Positions 57,534 to 63,955 of a stretch of 64,000 nucleotides of DNA are shown piece by piece. A model generated the notes under the pieces. It did no database searches. It worked only from the letters and a program-made list of their open reading frames with translations, and was not told the DNA's origin. Each line of letters starts with the position of its first letter. The stretch's first letter is position 1. The translations under genes and the position numbers were made by a program. This DNA is from Actinoplanes utahensis. Lineage in GTDB: Bacteria; Actinomycetota; Actinomycetes; Mycobacteriales; Micromonosporaceae. The stretch lies in NCBI RefSeq assembly GCF_016862455.1, contig NZ_BOMZ01000044.1, forward strand, positions 1 to 64,000, read 5' to 3'.

Positions 57534-58367
57534 TCAGTGGGCGGCGAAGGCCGCATGGCGGCCGGACCGCCAGAGCAGGCCGGTCTCCTGGAAACCGGCG
57601 GCTCTGGCGGCGTCGGCGTGCCAGGCCGGACCGGCGGTGAACTCGGCCGGCGGACGGTCGCGGAAGATGTCGGCGCGGGCCGCCAGCAGATCCTGGAGAC
57701 TCGGATCGTCGGCGAGTTCGGCCCACCACCGTGACCAGGCGAGCCCGGCCCTGCCCGGCACGAATTCATCCTCGTCCGGCACGAAACCAGCAGCGGCCGG
57801 GACGAGCCCGGCGGCGTCCGGGACGGACCCGCTGGCGGCCGGCGTGAGCACGGTTCGGGGCGGTGCGGGGTCGAGGGCGCGCATCACGGTGGGCAGGCCG
57901 TCGTCGGGCATGACGTCGGCGACGACGAGCAGGCCGCCGGGAGCGAGGACCCGCCGGACGCCCGCGTAGAGCGACCAGACCGACTCCGGCGCCAGGTAGT
58001 GGACCGTCATGACGGCGACGACCAGATCGAACCCGGTTCCGGTGCGGGCCGGCCAGCCCGGGTCGGCGAGGTCGGTGGGCAGTACGGTCACCGAGGCGGG
58101 AAGACCGTCGCGGGCCAGGGCGAGCAGCACCGGGTCGATGTCGGCGAGGACGATCCGGGCGCCGGGCCAGCGGGCGGCCATCCGCCCAGCGAACAGGCCG
58201 GGGCCGCCACCGAGGTCGAGGACGCGGCGGGGCGGTCCGCTCAGGCGTTCGGCCGTGTCGAGCACCGCCTGTTCCAGGGTGGGCAGGCCGGGCACGAACC
58301 CCGCCATCAGCGAGTCCCAGCCGGCCCGCCGGGCGGCCACGCCGACGGTTTCGAGTGCGGTGGACAT
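57534..58367 (-). CDS. Class I SAM-dependent methyltransferase
   Basis: A 277-aa protein with VLDLGGGPGLFAGRMAARWP (motif I), VLADIDP (motif II) and a FDLVVAVMTVHYL segment. It is a small-molecule-type methyltransferase; the substrate is unknown. Four seven-residue repeats (AASGSVP, DAAGLVP, AAAGFVP, DEDEFVP) are inserted in the C-terminal half, encoded by a 21-bp tandem array. The ATG has a weak GGGGG site. A perfect 8-3-8 palindrome lies 30 bp upstream, suggesting tight regulation. Confidence 0.8.
   Translation of the reverse strand: MSTALETVGVAARRAGWDSLMAGFVPGLPTLEQAVLDTAERLSGPPRRVLDLGGGPGLFAGRMAARWPGARIVLADIDPVLLALARDGLPASVTVLPTDLADPGWPARTGTGFDLVVAVMTVHYLAPESVWSLYAGVRRVLAPGGLLVVADVMPDDGLPTVMRALDPAPPRTVLTPAASGSVPDAAGLVPAAAGFVPDEDEFVPGRAGLAWSRWWAELADDPSLQDLLAARADIFRDRPPAEFTAGPAWHADAARAAGFQETGLLWRSGRHAAFAAH
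57757..57840 (+). repeat. 21-bp tandem repeat (four units) in the methyltransferase gene
   Basis: Four degenerate units starting GGCACGA or GGGACG at 57757, 57778, 57799 and 57820 encode a seven-residue repeat in the protein. Confidence 0.85.
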
Positions 58368-58396
58368 GGCGGTGGCCCCCAGAGAACGAAACGGAA

Positions 58397-58415
58397 AGAA
58401 ACGACAATCGTTTCT
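58397..58415. promoter_or_regulatory. Perfect inverted repeat AGAAACGA-N3-TCGTTTCT, probable operator
   Basis: An 8-3-8 palindrome in an AT-richer stretch, 30 bp before the methyltransferase ATG. Its shape resembles TetR-family operators; no TetR gene is present in this window. Confidence 0.6.
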
Positions 58416-58555
58416 AACCGCTCCGAGCGCTCCACGGTCCCGTTTCCGCGATCACCTCCGGCGCGGGGAGGTGACCGCGGATGACGGCCGAACTCCACAC
58501 GCCGGAGGCCGCGGGCCCGTGTGGATGACGGCTGGGCTCCGCACGGGGGAAGGGG

Positions 58556-59719
58556 TCAGTGGTCGAGGCGGGAGAGGGCTTCGAGCAGGCGATCGACCTC
58601 TTCGGGGGTGTTGTAGACGTGCAGGCTCACCCGTACCGATGCGGTCTTCTCGCCCTGGGCGCCCTGGCAGTGATCGTCGGCGCGCACCAGCAGGCCGTCG
58701 CTGGCCAGGATGAAGCCGAGGTCGTTGGAGCCGATCGAGTGGTGCCGGAAGGTCACTATCCCGTGACGCTGCTGGACCATCGAGTCGGCGGTGAGGCTGC
58801 GCTGGCAGCCGAGGACCTCGTAGGCGGGCATCTTGCTGAGCCCTTCGGTGAGGCGGACGCCGAGGGCCTGGTTCCACCGGGCGATCCGGTCGAGGCCGGC
58901 CGCGTCCAGCCAGTCCATCGCGGCGGCCAGGCTGATGATGCCGCTGGTGTTGGGGGAGCCGATCCAGCCGGCCGGCCGGTAGGCGGGACCGCGCCGGTTG
59001 CGGGCCCAGATCGCCCCGGTGCCGGGCAGGGCCATCGCCTTGTGGCCGGAGAAGACCACGAAGTCGACGTCGAGCTCGGCGACCGAGATCGGGATGTGGC
59101 CGAAGCTCTGTGCGGCGTCCAGGCAGATCGGCACGCCGGGGGCGATGGCGCGGAGCCGGTGCACGTTCATGTCGCTGCCGTAGACGTGATGCACGTGGGT
59201 GGCCGCGATCATCCTGGTCCGCGGGCTGACGGTGAGGCGGCGGTGGTCGTAGTCGTGGGCGGCGTCGTACGGGATGGCCCGCACCGAGATCCCCGCCATG
59301 GTGGCCGCCTCCACCCACGGCATGCTGTTGGCGTTGTGGTCGGCGAACGGGACCAGGATCTCGTCGCCGTCGCGGAGCTGGGGCAGCAGCCAGTCCCGGG
59401 CGACGGCCCGCAGTCCTTCGGTGGCGCCGCTGACGAACTGCACGGTGGATTCCGCCGGCGCCGGGTCGCCGAGAAAGCGGCGCAGCCGGTCCCGGGCCTG
59501 TTCGATGCGGGCCGTGGTGCGGTTGGCCCACGGGTAGGTGCCGCGGGCCGCGTTGGCGTTCCCCGTGGTCAGGTAGGTGATCACGGCGTCCAGCACGGCC
59601 TGCGGCTTCTGCGAGGTGGCGGCGCTGTCCAGGTAGGCGACGTCGGGGTTGGCCGCGATCATCGGGAACTGTGCGCGGAGCCCGCGCTGCCAGCCGGCGA
59701 GATCGTCGAGGGCGGTCAC
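58556..59719 (-). CDS. Class V aminotransferase, SufS/CsdA-like cysteine desulfurase homologue
   Basis: A 387-aa PLP enzyme. The PLP lysine is in VFSGHKAMALPGTGAIW (about residue 226). ADHNANSMPW replaces the common EHHSNxxPW loop. A cysteine sits in RADDHCQGAQG, the place of the active persulfide cysteine of SufS-type enzymes, and the C-terminus has the typical SLHVYNTPEEVDRLLEAL. It could take sulfur from cysteine as persulfide. The GTG at 59719 is 2 bp after the stop of the cysteine-synthase/rhodanese gene, so they are coupled. Confidence 0.85.
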   Translation of the reverse strand: MTALDDLAGWQRGLRAQFPMIAANPDVAYLDSAATSQKPQAVLDAVITYLTTGNANAARGTYPWANRTTARIEQARDRLRRFLGDPAPAESTVQFVSGATEGLRAVARDWLLPQLRDGDEILVPFADHNANSMPWVEAATMAGISVRAIPYDAAHDYDHRRLTVSPRTRMIAATHVHHVYGSDMNVHRLRAIAPGVPICLDAAQSFGHIPISVAELDVDFVVFSGHKAMALPGTGAIWARNRRGPAYRPAGWIGSPNTSGIISLAAAMDWLDAAGLDRIARWNQALGVRLTEGLSKMPAYEVLGCQRSLTADSMVQQRHGIVTFRHHSIGSNDLGFILASDGLLVRADDHCQGAQGEKTASVRVSLHVYNTPEEVDRLLEALSRLDH

Positions 59720-59721
59720 GG

Positions 59722-61029
59722 TCAGTCCCGGACCAGGTCGAGGCCGGCGTCGCGCCAGGCGATGATGCCGCCGGCCAGCGAGCGGGCGTCCGGGTGGCCC
59801 ATCCGGGTGAGCAGGGCGGCGTACGCGGCGGAGCGTTCACCGACCGGGCAGACCAGCAGGACCGGCCGGCGGGGGCTGAACGGCAGGCCGGCGTGGAGCA
59901 GGTCGGCGAACACCTCGTCGGCGATGTTGATCGAGCCGTCGATGTGCAGGGCCTGGTAGGCGTACGGGTTGCGAAGGTCCACGACCAGGGCGCCCGGGAC
60001 GAAGGACGGCGCGTCGGCCACGGGAATCACCGGAGCGGCCGAGATGTCGGACTCGGCGAGGCTCGCGACGGAATGCGGCCGGGGCGGGCGGCCGAACAGG
60101 GCGGGACGGCGATCGCGCAGGTAGCTGAGATAGCTCTCGACGCGGTCGCAGACGATGAAGACGGCGGTGCGGCGGGGGCCTTCGTCGACCGTACGAAGGA
60201 AATCGATCGCACCCTGCAGCGCGCCGCCCCCGGTGGGTCCCGCCAGGATGCCGCACCGGCGGACCAGGGTGAGCAGCCCGTCGATGGCCTGGTCCGCGCT
60301 GACCTCGGCGATGGTGTCGTAGACGTCGGGTTCGAAGAGCCCGACCTGGTGCACCTCGTCGATGGTGCGGATGCCGGGGATGAAGTCGCTCTTGGCGGCG
60401 ACCAGCCCGACCACGTGGGTGTCCGGGTTCTGCTGGCGCAGCGCGCGGGCCACCCCGGTGGACGATCCGGCGGTGCCGACGCAGGCGATGAACCAGTCCG
60501 GGGCGTTGCCGTCGAGGTCCTTGACGATCTCCGCGCCGGTGCCGGTGAAGTGGGCTTCCACGTTGCGCTCGTTGAAGTACTGGTCGGTGTGCGTCCAGCC
60601 GCCGCCGTCGGCGTTGAGCCGCTGGTACATCCGGGTGAGCGGGTCCTCGATGTCGCTCGGGTCGAGGCATTCGGACTGGCCGGGCAGTTCGTCGATCTCG
60701 GCGCCGAGCAGCAGCAGGAGGTCCTTGATCTCAGGGACCCTCATCCGGTTGGTGACGCTCTTGAACCGCAGCCCGTGCATCCCGGCGATCAGGGCGAGGG
60801 CTTTGGCGGTGTTGCCGCTGGACAGTTCCACGACGGTGTCGCCGCGTTCCACCGCGCCGGGCAGCAGCGGCCGCACCATGTTCCAGGCGGCGCGGTCCTT
60901 CACCGACCCGAACGGGTTGAGCAGTTCCAGCTTGGCGTAGAGGTCGATGGTGCGCAGGCCGTGCACGTCCGGGTCGATGCGGACCAGTGGCGTGTTGCCG
61001 ATGGCGTCGGTGATGTCGTCGTACCTCAT
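59722..61029 (-). CDS. Cysteine-synthase-like PLP enzyme fused to rhodanese
   Basis: A 435-aa protein. Residues 1 to about 320 are a fold-type II PLP enzyme of the CysK/CysM group: GNTPLVRI, PLP lysine K44 in FGSVKDRAAW, SSGNTAKAL and the phosphate loop GTAGSSTGV. Residues about 340-435 are a rhodanese domain with the active loop CPVGERS (C394). Such a fusion could attach sulfur, delivered as persulfide on C394, to an activated serine-type substrate. The ATG at 61029 has GGAG at 5 nt and overlaps the stop of a 17-aa ORF. Substrate and product are not known. Confidence 0.85.
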   Translation of the reverse strand: MRYDDITDAIGNTPLVRIDPDVHGLRTIDLYAKLELLNPFGSVKDRAAWNMVRPLLPGAVERGDTVVELSSGNTAKALALIAGMHGLRFKSVTNRMRVPEIKDLLLLLGAEIDELPGQSECLDPSDIEDPLTRMYQRLNADGGGWTHTDQYFNERNVEAHFTGTGAEIVKDLDGNAPDWFIACVGTAGSSTGVARALRQQNPDTHVVGLVAAKSDFIPGIRTIDEVHQVGLFEPDVYDTIAEVSADQAIDGLLTLVRRCGILAGPTGGGALQGAIDFLRTVDEGPRRTAVFIVCDRVESYLSYLRDRRPALFGRPPRPHSVASLAESDISAAPVIPVADAPSFVPGALVVDLRNPYAYQALHIDGSINIADEVFADLLHAGLPFSPRRPVLLVCPVGERSAAYAALLTRMGHPDARSLAGGIIAWRDAGLDLVRD

Positions 61030-61079
61030 GGCGGCTCCGGGGGCGGGTGGATGGGCCAGTAGACGTCGCGGGCGTTCAT
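61026..61079 (-). CDS. Tiny ORF (17 aa) coupled at both ends
   Basis: ATG at 61079 encodes MNARDVYWPIHPPPEPP. Its start overlaps the stop of the 53-aa ORF (ATGA) and its stop overlaps the start of the cysteine-synthase/rhodanese gene (ATGA). It is rich in proline and aromatic residues. It may be a precursor or leader peptide, or simply an open spacer; sequence alone cannot tell. Confidence 0.4.
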   Translation of the reverse strand: MNARDVYWPIHPPPEPP

Positions 61080-61237
61080 GGCCGCAGCCCGCGGGCCCGG
61101 CAGCCGTCCAGGGCGTCCAGGCAGCCCTCCAGGGCGGCCGCCTTCTCCGGCGGGGAGACGGTGTCCACGTGGTAGGCGACCCGGCGCTCGAGCAGGGCCG
61201 CGGTGAGCGGCCCGGTCCTCGGCGTCAGGAAGAGCAC
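61076..61237 (-). CDS. Small ORF (53 aa), first gene of the sulfur operon
   Basis: A GTG at 61237 encodes VLFLTPRTGPLTAALLERRV followed by AYHVDTVSPPEKAAALEGCL and a short tail with a second cysteine. TACGTT lies 6 nt upstream of the GTG with TTGCGG 17 bp further, fitting a leaderless promoter. It ends in ATGA with the 17-aa ORF. It resembles a small helical protein; no family recognised. Not a shadow: no other gene is annotated in this stretch. Confidence 0.5.
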   Translation of the reverse strand: MLFLTPRTGPLTAALLERRVAYHVDTVSPPEKAAALEGCLDALDGCRARGLRP

Positions 61238-61249
61238 TCCCCCAACGTA
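61238..61249 (-). promoter_or_regulatory. Leaderless-type -10 (TACGTT) of the sulfur operon
   Basis: TACGTT (61249-61244), GGGGGA, then GTG at 61237. TTGCGG lies 17 bp upstream as a possible -35. Confidence 0.45.
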
Positions 61250-61290: not shown

Positions 61291-62331
61291 TCAGATGGTC
61301 CGCAGGTCAAGCGTGTGCCAGACGGGCGCCTCCTGGCCGCCGGTGGACCACCAGAGCACACCGTCCTTGGTGGCGGCCATGTCGGCGGCGACCGCGACCG
61401 GCACGCTGCGCCGGTTCTCCAGGTCGTGGACGAGCAGGGCGGCGGTGCCGGTGAGGTCGGCGTTCGGGCCGGGCACCGACAGGATCTCGAACCGGCCCAG
61501 TACGGCCACGTCGTTCACCGCGGCCTGGGTGTCCGGGCCGGCCACCCGGCGGCGGTCCGAACCGTCCGGCCGCATCAGGTCGATCCGGGCCAGCCCGGCG
61601 CTGGTCGCCACCATCACCCGGCACCAGGACGGGTCGCACATCGCCCATTCCGCGCCGGAGAACGGGATCTGCAGCTCCTTGCCGTTCTCCAGGTTGCGCA
61701 TGTGGACGGCGCCGGTCTGGCCGCCGGTGTCGTCGGTGAGCCACGGCCACGCCGACAGCGCCCACCGGCCGGTCTCCTCCCGCACGGTGACCGCGCCGCC
61801 GGTGAGGGCCACCGACCGGATCTGCGTCGTCCGGTCGCCGTCACCGGCCGTCCAGTACACCCGGCCGCCGGCCACCACCAGGTCGTGCTGGTTGCCGTAG
61901 AACAGCGTGTTGCCGGTGTCCGCGGTGAGCCGTCGGGGCTTGCCGCCGGCCTGGTGGGCCGCCCAGATCTCGACCGGCCCGTCCCCGGTCTGTTCGGTCC
62001 AGATCAGCTCGTCGCCGGCCGCGGTGACCACCTCGAAGCGGGGCTCGCCGGTCACCGGCAGGCGGCGCAGCTCGCGCACGATCCCGGACTTCTCGATCAG
62101 CAGCTGGATCTCGTCACCGTCGGTGAAGGTGCCGACGGCGGTGGTGGCGTCCAGGAAGTACAGCGGGTCGACCGTCAGGTTCGGCAGGTCGGCGCGCTGC
62201 GCGGCGGGCCACAGCTGCTCGGCGGTGAGCGCGGCCGGGGCGGCCTGCGGCGCGGCGGGGATGGTGCCGCCCAGCAGCGCGCCGGCCGCGACCAGGGCCA
62301 CCGCCAGGGGGATCCAGCGGGCGCGGGTCAC
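61291..62331 (-). CDS. Secreted beta-propeller-like protein
   Basis: A 346-aa protein with an N-terminal signal (RWIPLAVALVAAGALLGGTI) and repeated strands of the TolB/WD40-like type (GDELIWTEQTGDGPVEIWAA, GGRVYWTAGDGD, KDGVLWWSTGGQEAPVWHTL). CDPSWCRVM may form a disulfide. The GTG at 62331 overlaps the stop of the TIGR03943-like gene (GTGA). The function is unknown; the operon suggests an envelope role with the permease. Confidence 0.75.
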   Translation of the reverse strand: MTRARWIPLAVALVAAGALLGGTIPAAPQAAPAALTAEQLWPAAQRADLPNLTVDPLYFLDATTAVGTFTDGDEIQLLIEKSGIVRELRRLPVTGEPRFEVVTAAGDELIWTEQTGDGPVEIWAAHQAGGKPRRLTADTGNTLFYGNQHDLVVAGGRVYWTAGDGDRTTQIRSVALTGGAVTVREETGRWALSAWPWLTDDTGGQTGAVHMRNLENGKELQIPFSGAEWAMCDPSWCRVMVATSAGLARIDLMRPDGSDRRRVAGPDTQAAVNDVAVLGRFEILSVPGPNADLTGTAALLVHDLENRRSVPVAVAADMAATKDGVLWWSTGGQEAPVWHTLDLRTI

Positions 62332-63050
62332 TCGTACTGCTGCTTCGGTGGGGTGGCCGGTTGCCACTGCTCGACCTCCAGGTACGCGATGTCGGCCTGG
62401 TTGACCGTGTCCTTGCCGCGCTGAGCGGTGTATTTACCGGTGACCTGCACCCACGTCCCGGACGGCACGTCGATGACCGGGCCGCCGGTCAGGCCCACCT
62501 TGATCGGGCGGCCGTCGGCGGCGCAGCAGCTCACCACGATCCGGGCCAGTTGCACCCCCTCGGGTGACGTGTTGACGAACCCGATCAGCTGCAGGCGGCG
62601 CCCGGCGAGGCTGCGGCCCTCGTCGTAGATCGCCCGGGAGGCGTAGTCGAGCAGCCCGATCGGCGCCGGGTCGGCCGCGGGCAGCGGCGGATAGTCGGAG
62701 CTGCCGCTGACCTGGACCGTGCCGGACTGCCCGGCGGTGAACGAGCCGAGGGCGGGCGGGGCCACCAGCAGCAGGCCGAGCACCGGGAGGATGAGCAGCC
62801 AGCCCACGCGCGGCTCGTGATGCGCGTGGCCGTGGTCGTGCTCGTCCGCCGAGGAGGCTCCGGCGGAGGGGGCGGCGCGGTACTCGTACCACAGGGTCAT
62901 GATCGCGGCCAGGACCAGCGCCGCGCCCGCAGCGATGAGGAAGGGCCGCAGGCCCTCTTTGACGTATCGCAGATAGAGGTCGCTCAGCGACGCCTTGAGG
63001 ATCGCCCCGCCGAACAGGAAGAGGACGACCGCCTGCGCCTGCCGGTTCAC
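62328..63050 (-). CDS. TIGR03943 (YcgQ-like) membrane protein
   Basis: A 240-aa protein with two N-terminal helices, a His-rich loop (DEHDHGHAHH, residues 69-78), a third helix (LLILPVLGLLLVAPPALGSF), and an extracytoplasmic domain with VSCCAADGRPIKVGLTG. The family regularly accompanies DUF318-type permeases. The His-rich loop and CC pair suggest metal binding; the substrate is not known. The GTG at 63050 overlaps the permease stop (GTGA). Confidence 0.85.
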   Translation of the reverse strand: MNRQAQAVVLFLFGGAILKASLSDLYLRYVKEGLRPFLIAAGAALVLAAIMTLWYEYRAAPSAGASSADEHDHGHAHHEPRVGWLLILPVLGLLLVAPPALGSFTAGQSGTVQVSGSSDYPPLPAADPAPIGLLDYASRAIYDEGRSLAGRRLQLIGFVNTSPEGVQLARIVVSCCAADGRPIKVGLTGGPVIDVPSGTWVQVTGKYTAQRGKDTVNQADIAYLEVEQWQPATPPKQQYE

Positions 63051-63955
63051 AGCAGCACCAGCCCGGCGCCGGTCGCGGCGACGATCGCCAGCACGAACGT
63101 GGCCGGCGCGAACCGGGCGGTGAAGCGGCGGCCGAACACCCCGGCCTGCATCGAGATCAGCTTCAGGTCGACCATCGGCCCGACCACCAGGAACACCAGC
63201 CGGGAGGTGAGCGAGAACTGCGACAGCGACGCGGCGACGAAGGCGTCGGCCTCGCTGCAGATCGACAGGAGCACGGCGAGGACCGCCAGCGCCAGCACCG
63301 ACAGCACCGGCTGCGCGGCGAGCGTCTGGAGCCACGCCTCCGGCACGATCACGTTGATCGTCGCGGCGGCCGCGGCACCCACCACCAGGAACCCGCCCGC
63401 GTGCACCACGTCGTGCCGGCACGCCGACCAGAACGCCCGGCCCTTCGACGCGCCGTCCAGGTCCGGCCGGTGCGGCAGCTTGATCCACTCAGTCCTGCCC
63501 AGGCGCAGCCACAGCCAGCCCATCACCATCGCGACGGCCAGGCTGGCCAGGCCGCGGGCCAGCACCATCTCCGGATCGTCGGGAAAGGCGACGGCGGTCG
63601 CGGTCAGCACGATCGGGTTGATCGCGGGCGCGGCGAGCAGGAACGCCAGCGCGGCGGCGGGAGTGACGCCGCGGCGGATCAGGGACCCCGCGATCGGTAC
63701 GGCGCCGCACTCGCACCCGGGCAGGACGACCCCCGCCACACTGGCCGCCGGAACGGCGAGCGCCGGGTGCCGGGGCAGCGCCTTGGCCCAGAACGACCGG
63801 GGCACGAAGACCGCGATCACCGCCGACAGCAGCACCCCGAAGACCAGGAACGGGACCGCCTGCACCAGCACCGACACGAAGACCGTGGTCCAGGTCTGCA
63901 GGCGCTCGCCGCCGATCACCCCGGAGATCCGGTCCCGGAGGATCACCAGGGCCAC
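63047..63955 (-). CDS. DUF318-type (YcgR-like) permease; start may lie right of the window
   Basis: At least 302 aa with about eight helices. VVLPGCECGAVPIAGSLIRR and LLAAPAINPIVLTATAVAFP mark the first half, and LLSICSEADAFVAASL the second. The GTG at 63955 is the first start codon in the window, but the frame stays open and hydrophobic to base 64000, so the true start may be further upstream. It heads the permease-TIGR03943-propeller operon. Substrate unknown; a metal or small ion is possible. Confidence 0.82.
   Translation of the reverse strand: MALVILRDRISGVIGGERLQTWTTVFVSVLVQAVPFLVFGVLLSAVIAVFVPRSFWAKALPRHPALAVPAASVAGVVLPGCECGAVPIAGSLIRRGVTPAAALAFLLAAPAINPIVLTATAVAFPDDPEMVLARGLASLAVAMVMGWLWLRLGRTEWIKLPHRPDLDGASKGRAFWSACRHDVVHAGGFLVVGAAAAATINVIVPEAWLQTLAAQPVLSVLALAVLAVLLSICSEADAFVAASLSQFSLTSRLVFLVVGPMVDLKLISMQAGVFGRRFTARFAPATFVLAIVAATGAGLVLL

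Follow-up and report, generated by a model that had tools for sequence, protein, structure and literature searches.

The operon examined here raises two questions: what a compact set of sulfur-transfer genes might make, and whether the two very small open reading frames (ORFs) at its head encode peptides that belong to it. It lies on the minus strand of the window, by which we mean the whole stretch that was analysed, positions 1-64,000 of contig NZ_BOMZ01000044.1 of Actinoplanes utahensis. A description made from the letters alone (the sequence-only reading) had listed four coupled ORFs: a 53-amino-acid (aa) ORF with a GTG start (61237-61076), a 17-aa ORF (61079-61026), a CysK-rhodanese fusion of 435 aa (59722..61029) and a SufS-like enzyme of 387 aa (58556..59719). 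Their coordinates and order were confirmed, as were the ATGA overlaps at 61079-61076 and 61029-61026 and the 2-bp gap at 59721-59720. The couplings stand; the two small ORFs as genes do not, and a methyltransferase gene is the usual further member of the operon. On the best reading the operon is a variant of the aminopolycarboxylate metallophore core to which sulfur enzymes have been added, and many of its copies, though not all, have a connection to zinc. That the window carries a damaged copy of an operon with which actinomycetes make a small chelator when zinc is limiting is, in our judgement, an evenly balanced proposition.

The alignments indicate that neither the 53-aa nor the 17-aa ORF is a gene: both are fragments, still in their original order, of a ∼475-codon gene for a fold-III pyridoxal phosphate (PLP) decarboxylase of the Y4yA type. 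The stretch that holds them matches separate, ordered pieces of a decarboxylase gene that is intact in relatives. Against the gene of Actinoplanes couchii the pieces aligned at E values of 7e-34, 7e-30 and 2e-17, and against that of the genus-mate G026 at 3e-30, 1e-29 and 8e-19, with a further weak 27-bp piece at 3e-5. The best real score was 114 bits, whereas none of 200 shuffles scored above 31.9 bits. All remnants lie on the minus strand. The first (61187..61237; 85% identity over 102 bp to G026, E 3e-30) is the decarboxylase start codon with the first ∼16 codons, and its homology extends upstream to 61288, into the promoter region. The second (61071..61184; E 1e-29 to G026) corresponds to codons ∼198-234, VAYHVDTVSPPEKAAALEGCLDALDGCRARGLRP; fused to the first, it makes up the 53-aa ORF. 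The third and weakest, ∼27 bp around codons 361-366 (NARDV; 61062..61088; E 3e-5 to G026 and 0.002 to A. couchii), overlaps the junction with the second. It is fused in the 17-aa ORF to the fourth (61026..61060), the last 11 codons and stop, YWPIHPPPEPP, which form the body of that ORF and match at E 8e-19 when the start of the fusion gene is included. Some 1.2 kb of the decarboxylase gene has been lost from the window copy.

The intact state of the operon was seen in 80 relatives, the best 80 of 261 found and therefore leaning to close copies, and in a second, intact operon of the same genome on contig C79 (165210-170059). A long frame ending in a ..[FY]WP.. tail lies directly upstream of the fusion in 81/81 of these loci. 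The ∼475-aa upstream protein of A. couchii is a fold-III PLP decarboxylase by its match to PF02784 (4.5e-24); its match to the LysA model (2.7e-32) is under the cutoff. A class V match was found in 80/80 relatives, and a methyltransferase homologue cluster in 67 of the 83 loci entered (44/82 with a single query at E 1e-8). These comparisons indicate that the ancestral operon is made up of the decarboxylase, a PALP(CysK-like)-rhodanese fusion, a SufS-like class V enzyme and, usually, the methyltransferase. A 4-bp overlap of decarboxylase stop and fusion start is kept in 78 of the 81 loci, the exceptions being L030 and L036, with small gaps, and L054, in which the frame is apparently shifted. 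The ATGA at the start of the fusion gene is consequently judged to be ancestral, and the one that joins the two small ORFs to have been born at a deletion junction. Among the matches listed, best first, from a search of 60 genomes, the collapsed arrangement appeared in one match only in the window's own genome; an assembly error at the deletion junctions may be an alternative source of it. This genome has one other close decarboxylase, the C79 paralogue (61%). With its own decarboxylase lost, the window copy therefore needs that of the paralogue, or is in decay.

The sequence-only reading had offered the small ORFs as substrates or partners and had named their absence from relatives as telling against this; they are not conserved there, and an intact decarboxylase stands in their place. 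A peptide modification system acting on the 17- and 53-aa products, for which the positions and couplings of the ORFs had first spoken, is accordingly almost certainly wrong: both ORFs are pieces of a decarboxylase gene, and their place is held by a long decarboxylase frame in every one of the 81 loci. Small peptide substrates were rejected on the remnant alignments and on this frame. No conserved precursor of a ribosomally synthesized and post-translationally modified peptide was found, the upstream slot being the decarboxylase frame in 81/81 loci.

The remaining genes of the window appear to be alive. The fusion is intact and joins a PALP domain of the CysK/CysM/SbnA-like fold II (residues 6-295, 60145..61014, minus strand; Pfam PF00291, 8.4e-55), with PLP Lys44, to a rhodanese domain with the loop CPVGERS (residues 347-427, 59749..59991, minus strand; PF00581, 1.3e-14), in which the active-site Cys394 is present and sulfurtransferase activity is predicted from sequence. 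The class V PLP enzyme is also intact (PF00266, Aminotran_5, 3e-74), with Lys227, Cys351 and Arg363, and shares the HC and R.S motifs when aligned to SufS. After a gap of 188 bp follows the S-adenosylmethionine (SAM) methyltransferase gene (277 aa; 57534..58367, minus strand; PF13649, 1.8e-13). Ratios of non-synonymous to synonymous substitution between the window and A. couchii, pairwise averages that also cover the time before the deletions, were 0.23 for both the fusion and the class V enzyme, while the methyltransferase gave 0.46. Lys44 and Cys394 were kept in 82/82 aligned fusions, and the three class V residues in 76 of 81 rows; the other five were gapped or different and had probably been misread in a wrong frame by the start finder. 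The gene caller used for the neighbourhoods makes frame errors, and the catalytic counts include gapped rows. The decarboxylase Lys was present in 79/80 rows, and Cys-x-Glu-x-Asp and Tyr in 80/80. The claim that desulfurase-like, rhodanese and cysteine-synthase-like parts belong together is thereby borne out: they are kept together as a single unit, and their catalytic residues are conserved.

Family membership at the fold level would allow the fusion and its neighbour to serve primary metabolism as an ordinary cysteine synthase and desulfurase. We regard this as very unlikely. The fusion scored at best 179.9 bits against the CysK/CysM NCBIfam equivalog models, for which the cutoff is 413, and 144.2 bits against the SbnA model (cutoff 349.95); for the last ORF, SufS was the best NCBIfam model at 256.7 bits, under its cutoff of 475.1. 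The fusions formed their own clade (100/100), apart from the CysK/CysM rows, in a PALP tree built without the long row own_L008, and the genome holds separate CysK/CysM-like paralogues. Distribution is sparse: the fusion was found in 5/396 genomes of a phylum-wide draw and in 15/36 relatives, all within the same genus, and the strains that carry it include Streptomyces, Micromonospora and Actinoplanes. An ordinary cysteine synthase was rejected on the model cutoffs, the separate clade and this distribution. The AlphaFold model of the fusion was moderate (pLDDT 72.6) and its domain geometry was left unused. In a fold search, Mycobacterium tuberculosis CysM from the complex with its sulfur carrier (3dwg) and a cystathionine beta-synthase shared first place by E-value; the search confirmed the PALP fold and nothing beyond.

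The genes around many copies of the operon point to zinc. The genome-neighbourhood search for CysK-rhodanese fusions that had been proposed as a check returned the decarboxylase, the class V enzyme, often the methyltransferase and, near a part of the copies, zinc genes. Next to the C79 operon lie a FUR-family gene (170216), which we take to be Zur because of the genes around it, ZnuA (170846), an ABC-3 permease (173346) and two CobW genes (174751 and 177177); genes for L28, S14 and a His-rich protein are ∼20 kb away. Queries for ZnuA, Zur, the permease, CobW and L28/S14 were run within ∼9 kb of the operon. Zinc genes were found near 9/14 same-genus operons (seven by Znu genes, two by CobW alone), near 21/80 relatives (18 with Znu genes, the other three by Zur alone, CobW alone, and CobW with L28/S14) and near 0/20 cysK control loci, two of which were shortened by contig ends. 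The 14 loci come partly from genomes apparently among the 80, and the two counts are not independent. When the His-rich protein was counted too, 34/80 relatives were positive. In a Streptomyces copy, S14, L28 and CobW genes adjoin the operon. Physical linkage to zinc uptake genes is present in many copies, a minority of the 80.

As to the wider surroundings, the 142-181 kb part of C79 (L089, L123, L124) forms a large island of zinc genes: it holds two ABC-3 systems, the FUR-family gene, two CobW genes and L28/S14, and it also encodes surface proteins, one with a WxL match. Small His-rich repeat proteins recur (L032:11487-11828, plus strand, without a Pfam match; L123:4102-4467, minus strand), several of them adjoining ArsR-family genes, and matches to the His-rich protein lie near 17/80 operon copies. 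Immediately upstream of the window operon is a pair of genes for a DUF1980 protein and an ArsP_1-type permease (62328-63955, minus strand); such genes were found near 5/80 relatives' operons, 2/14 same-genus operons and 0/20 control loci.

Candidate Zur boxes were sought with a pattern chosen after sites from earlier scans had been seen. It gave 38 matches at 36 places in the A. utahensis genome, as compared with one for the reversed control, and seven of the 36 places fell on the 39-kb C79 stretch, including 164977, which lies between divergent genes upstream of the operon. The pattern resembles the Streptomyces coelicolor motif printed in the relevant part of PMC5472717. A Zur box in every copy was not found: the consensus scan and a position weight matrix (PWM) scan both gave a minority. 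Another Zur-box-like 15-mer (58402-58416) lies in a predicted hairpin (58380..58440, minus strand) in the gap that separates the window's class V gene from its methyltransferase gene; the hairpin also holds the perfect dyad AGAAACGA-TTG-TCGTTTCT (58397-58415). Its folding z was -3.3 in the window, -5.8 in A. couchii (L009) and -6.1 in G026, the arms being longer in the latter two, and its core has two mismatches to the Zur-like pattern in the window and in A. couchii. It could be a terminator or attenuator, or an operator. Separately, an CATCGGTTACGTTGA-like element was noticed by eye upstream of the decarboxylase in L010-L018, L039, L041 and others (Micromonospora, Actinoplanes); perhaps it is a shared promoter -10 region.

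The decarboxylase gene was also followed outside the operon. In aminopolycarboxylate pathways, a PALP enzyme paired with such a decarboxylase builds an ethylenediamine unit, the substrates being a serine ester and an amine. A tblastn search of plasmids with the decarboxylase gave 89 records, 83 of them covered over at least 80% of its length. Among 40 rows shown, 21 were annotated 'Y4yA family PLP-dependent enzyme', 12 'alanine racemase' and one 'amino acid decarboxylase', six being nameless; 15 of the 40 overlapped a 'cysteine synthase family protein'. Five annotated regions were opened (Agrobacterium, M. avium, Sulfitobacter, Aureimonas and Bradyrhizobium), and around the PALP-decarboxylase pair they held at least one of ornithine cyclodeaminase (OCD), sbnA, opine dehydrogenase, IucA/IucC, a MATE or MFS protein, a TonB receptor or an iron ABC system; two more plasmid records carried no annotation. 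A cysteine synthase with a diaminopimelate decarboxylase and an OCD is called an 'aminopolycarboxylic-acid' cluster in a section of PMC13206832, and the class is named by antiSMASH 7 in the corresponding part of PMC10320115. Its zinc example, ethylenediamine disuccinate (EDDS), is under Zur control according to passages of PMC6103462, PMC9252823 and PMC10486106, and rhizobactin has an ethylenediamine unit in an excerpt of PMC7676072 that describes it without a pathway. The PALP gene adjoining a Y4yA/DAP-type (diaminopimelate) decarboxylase gene was found in 80/80 relatives and on C79, and as a remnant only in the window.

For the intact operon we infer a pathway in the following order. The SufS-like enzyme would move sulfur from L-cysteine onto its own Cys351, and the persulfide would be handed to Cys394 of the rhodanese domain. 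The PALP domain would form an aminoacrylate from O-phospho- or O-acetylserine and add a nucleophile to it, most likely the tethered sulfur, less likely an amine. The decarboxylase would then strip the alpha-carboxylate to give an aminoethyl arm; in EDDS-type aminopolycarboxylates, too, decarboxylation leaves such an arm. The methyltransferase would finish the molecule, which might bind zinc and re-enter the cell through ZnuABC. The window copy could complete this pathway only with the decarboxylase of the C79 paralogue. The sequence-only reading missed the decarboxylase, the methyltransferase gene and the zinc-uptake surroundings, and these favour a small-molecule pathway of the metallophore type over peptide modification. 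The product is probably a zincophore, a small metal-binding molecule in which sulfur is perhaps present. A class of sulfur-bearing zincophores, in which a desulfurase-rhodanese relay feeds the PALP domain in cis and the Y4yA decarboxylase yields an aminoethyl-sulfur ligand, so that a thiol or thioether chelator is made under zinc starvation without a non-ribosomal peptide synthetase (NRPS), can be put forward only tentatively.

Several observations weigh against this proposal. Its weakest step is the third: plain cysteine as the product would make the desulfurase-PALP chain futile, and since a plain serine ester would yield cysteine, we expect that the acceptor is a different one or that a polysulfide or thioether link is kept. 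In the tree the PALP domain grouped neither with CysK/CysM, nor with SbnA, nor with the PALP neighbours of Y4yA, so that the tree places it with neither the N- nor the S-nucleophile enzymes. Zinc genes were not found near 59/80 relatives in the strict test, or near 46/80 with the His-rich protein added, nor near the window copy (L090), beside which only the DUF1980/ArsP pair was seen. A strong PWM site lay upstream of the decarboxylase in only 7/80 loci (79 relatives and the C79 copy), as compared with a mean of 2.6 and a maximum of 6 in 20 shuffles and with 0-4 at five other positions in the same loci, and the Zur-like site before the window methyltransferase gene may be no operator, since it sits inside the hairpin. 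The Agrobacterium pair lies among phosphonate-type genes and the Sulfitobacter pair has no metal gene alongside in its stretch; because of these contexts a PALP-decarboxylase pair alone is no proof of a metallophore. A Nocardia cluster of the aminopolycarboxylic-acid class is assigned to iron control in the part of PMC10920908 that deals with it. Finally, query proteins taken from the plasmid regions (three OCD and two MATE proteins, with opine dehydrogenase, IucA/IucC and MFS) matched 0/80 and 0/14 loci at E 1e-6, so that no exporter of the MATE or MFS kinds is linked; since the OCD and opine dehydrogenase queries for a second arm matched nothing, the operon is treated as a variant of the aminopolycarboxylic-acid logic and not as a member of the class.

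Two alternatives draw on the same evidence. The operon might make an aminopolycarboxylate zincophore by amine chemistry, as for EDDS and staphyloferrin B, with the PALP domain using the amine of an amino acid, the decarboxylase producing an ethylenediamine unit and the SufS-like and rhodanese parts acting elsewhere, for example on a thioacid or as a regulator. Pairs of PALP and Y4yA genes do occur in operons that have no sulfur enzymes, and several of these operons resemble metallophore clusters; Zur control of EDDS is given in portions of PMC6103462 and PMC9252823. The rhodanese Cys394, however, is invariant (82/82) and covalently tethered to the PALP domain, and OCD and opine dehydrogenase queries matched none of the 80 and 14 loci (an EDDS-lyase query was not run). 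We find this explanation doubtful. Somewhat less probable still, in our view, is a zinc-sparing sulfur relay inside the cell, which would supply sulfide, cysteine or cysteamine there and secrete nothing. It would fit the lack of a match to MATE, MFS and siderophore-synthetase queries near the 80 and 14 copies and the alternative ribosomal proteins of Zur regulons (in a passage of PMC6103462), yet the decarboxylase and methyltransferase suggest a terminal small product, and a similar PALP/decarboxylase pair serves metallophores elsewhere. The sulfur-equipped metallophore variant is the reading that we retain.

A divergent version of the operon, with a fusion 48% identical, was found in G055 and G292 and also in G775. 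At the two loci with all four genes found, these encode the class V enzyme, a 429-aa protein with an HMA metal-binding domain (MTCKHC), the decarboxylase and the fusion; a motif search of G775 found only the HMA protein and the fusion. The 429-aa protein (L152:5022-6311, minus strand; also L151 and L192) has its HMA domain at the C-terminus and an N-terminal region without a Pfam match, and HMA-bearing proteins of this kind were found in 3/394 genomes searched. Further observations concern the decarboxylase gene. In the closer operon copy of G055 its frame is broken by one in-frame stop at codon 262 (L153:7247-8692, plus strand), and as G055 also carries the divergent operon, it is a second two-copy genome with a damaged decarboxylase. 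In Streptomyces endophytica (L054) the decarboxylase shows an apparent frame change in its first half and runs past the fusion start, through decay or sequence error.

If the proposal is true, strains of Streptomyces, Micromonospora and Actinoplanes hold a compact, NRPS-free pathway that joins cysteine sulfur to zinc acquisition, and the metallophore logic of PALP enzyme and decarboxylase extends to sulfur ligands. The remnant itself shows that a decayed enzyme gene can mimic two small peptide genes. The titles and abstracts searched in the open-licence literature contained no pathway of this composition, as the sequence-only reading had supposed, and did not connect a cysteine synthase-rhodanese fusion with zinc or with metallophores.

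The operon can be compared with several known systems. With the aminopolycarboxylic-acid clusters, such as that for EDDS in Amycolatopsis japonicum, it shares the PALP enzyme and the fold-III decarboxylase (DAP/ornithine type) and, in many copies, the zinc context; it differs in the rhodanese joined to the PALP domain, in the added SufS-like enzyme and methyltransferase, and in the lack of OCD, opine dehydrogenase, MATE or MFS query matches near the 80 and 14 copies. The same PALP and fold-III decarboxylase logic operates in staphyloferrin B, where SbnA is the PALP enzyme and SbnH the decarboxylase; here, in contrast, the PALP domain is under the SbnA cutoff, no IucA/IucC match lies nearby and sulfur enzymes are added. 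SufS and CsdA have the fold and the positions of the PLP Lys, the catalytic Cys and the Arg in common with the class V enzyme, which is under the SufS cutoff and has no SUF-gene match nearby (E. coli SufA, SufB, SufD and SufE queries gave 0/80, 0/14 and 0/2 own loci), a rhodanese being in the partner position. M. tuberculosis CysM takes its sulfur from the carrier CysO; the PALP fold is common to both systems, as would be, under our proposal, a protein-bound sulfur donor. Here that donor would be the persulfide of a fused rhodanese, fed by a desulfurase, rather than a thiocarboxylate carrier, and a decarboxylase is added.

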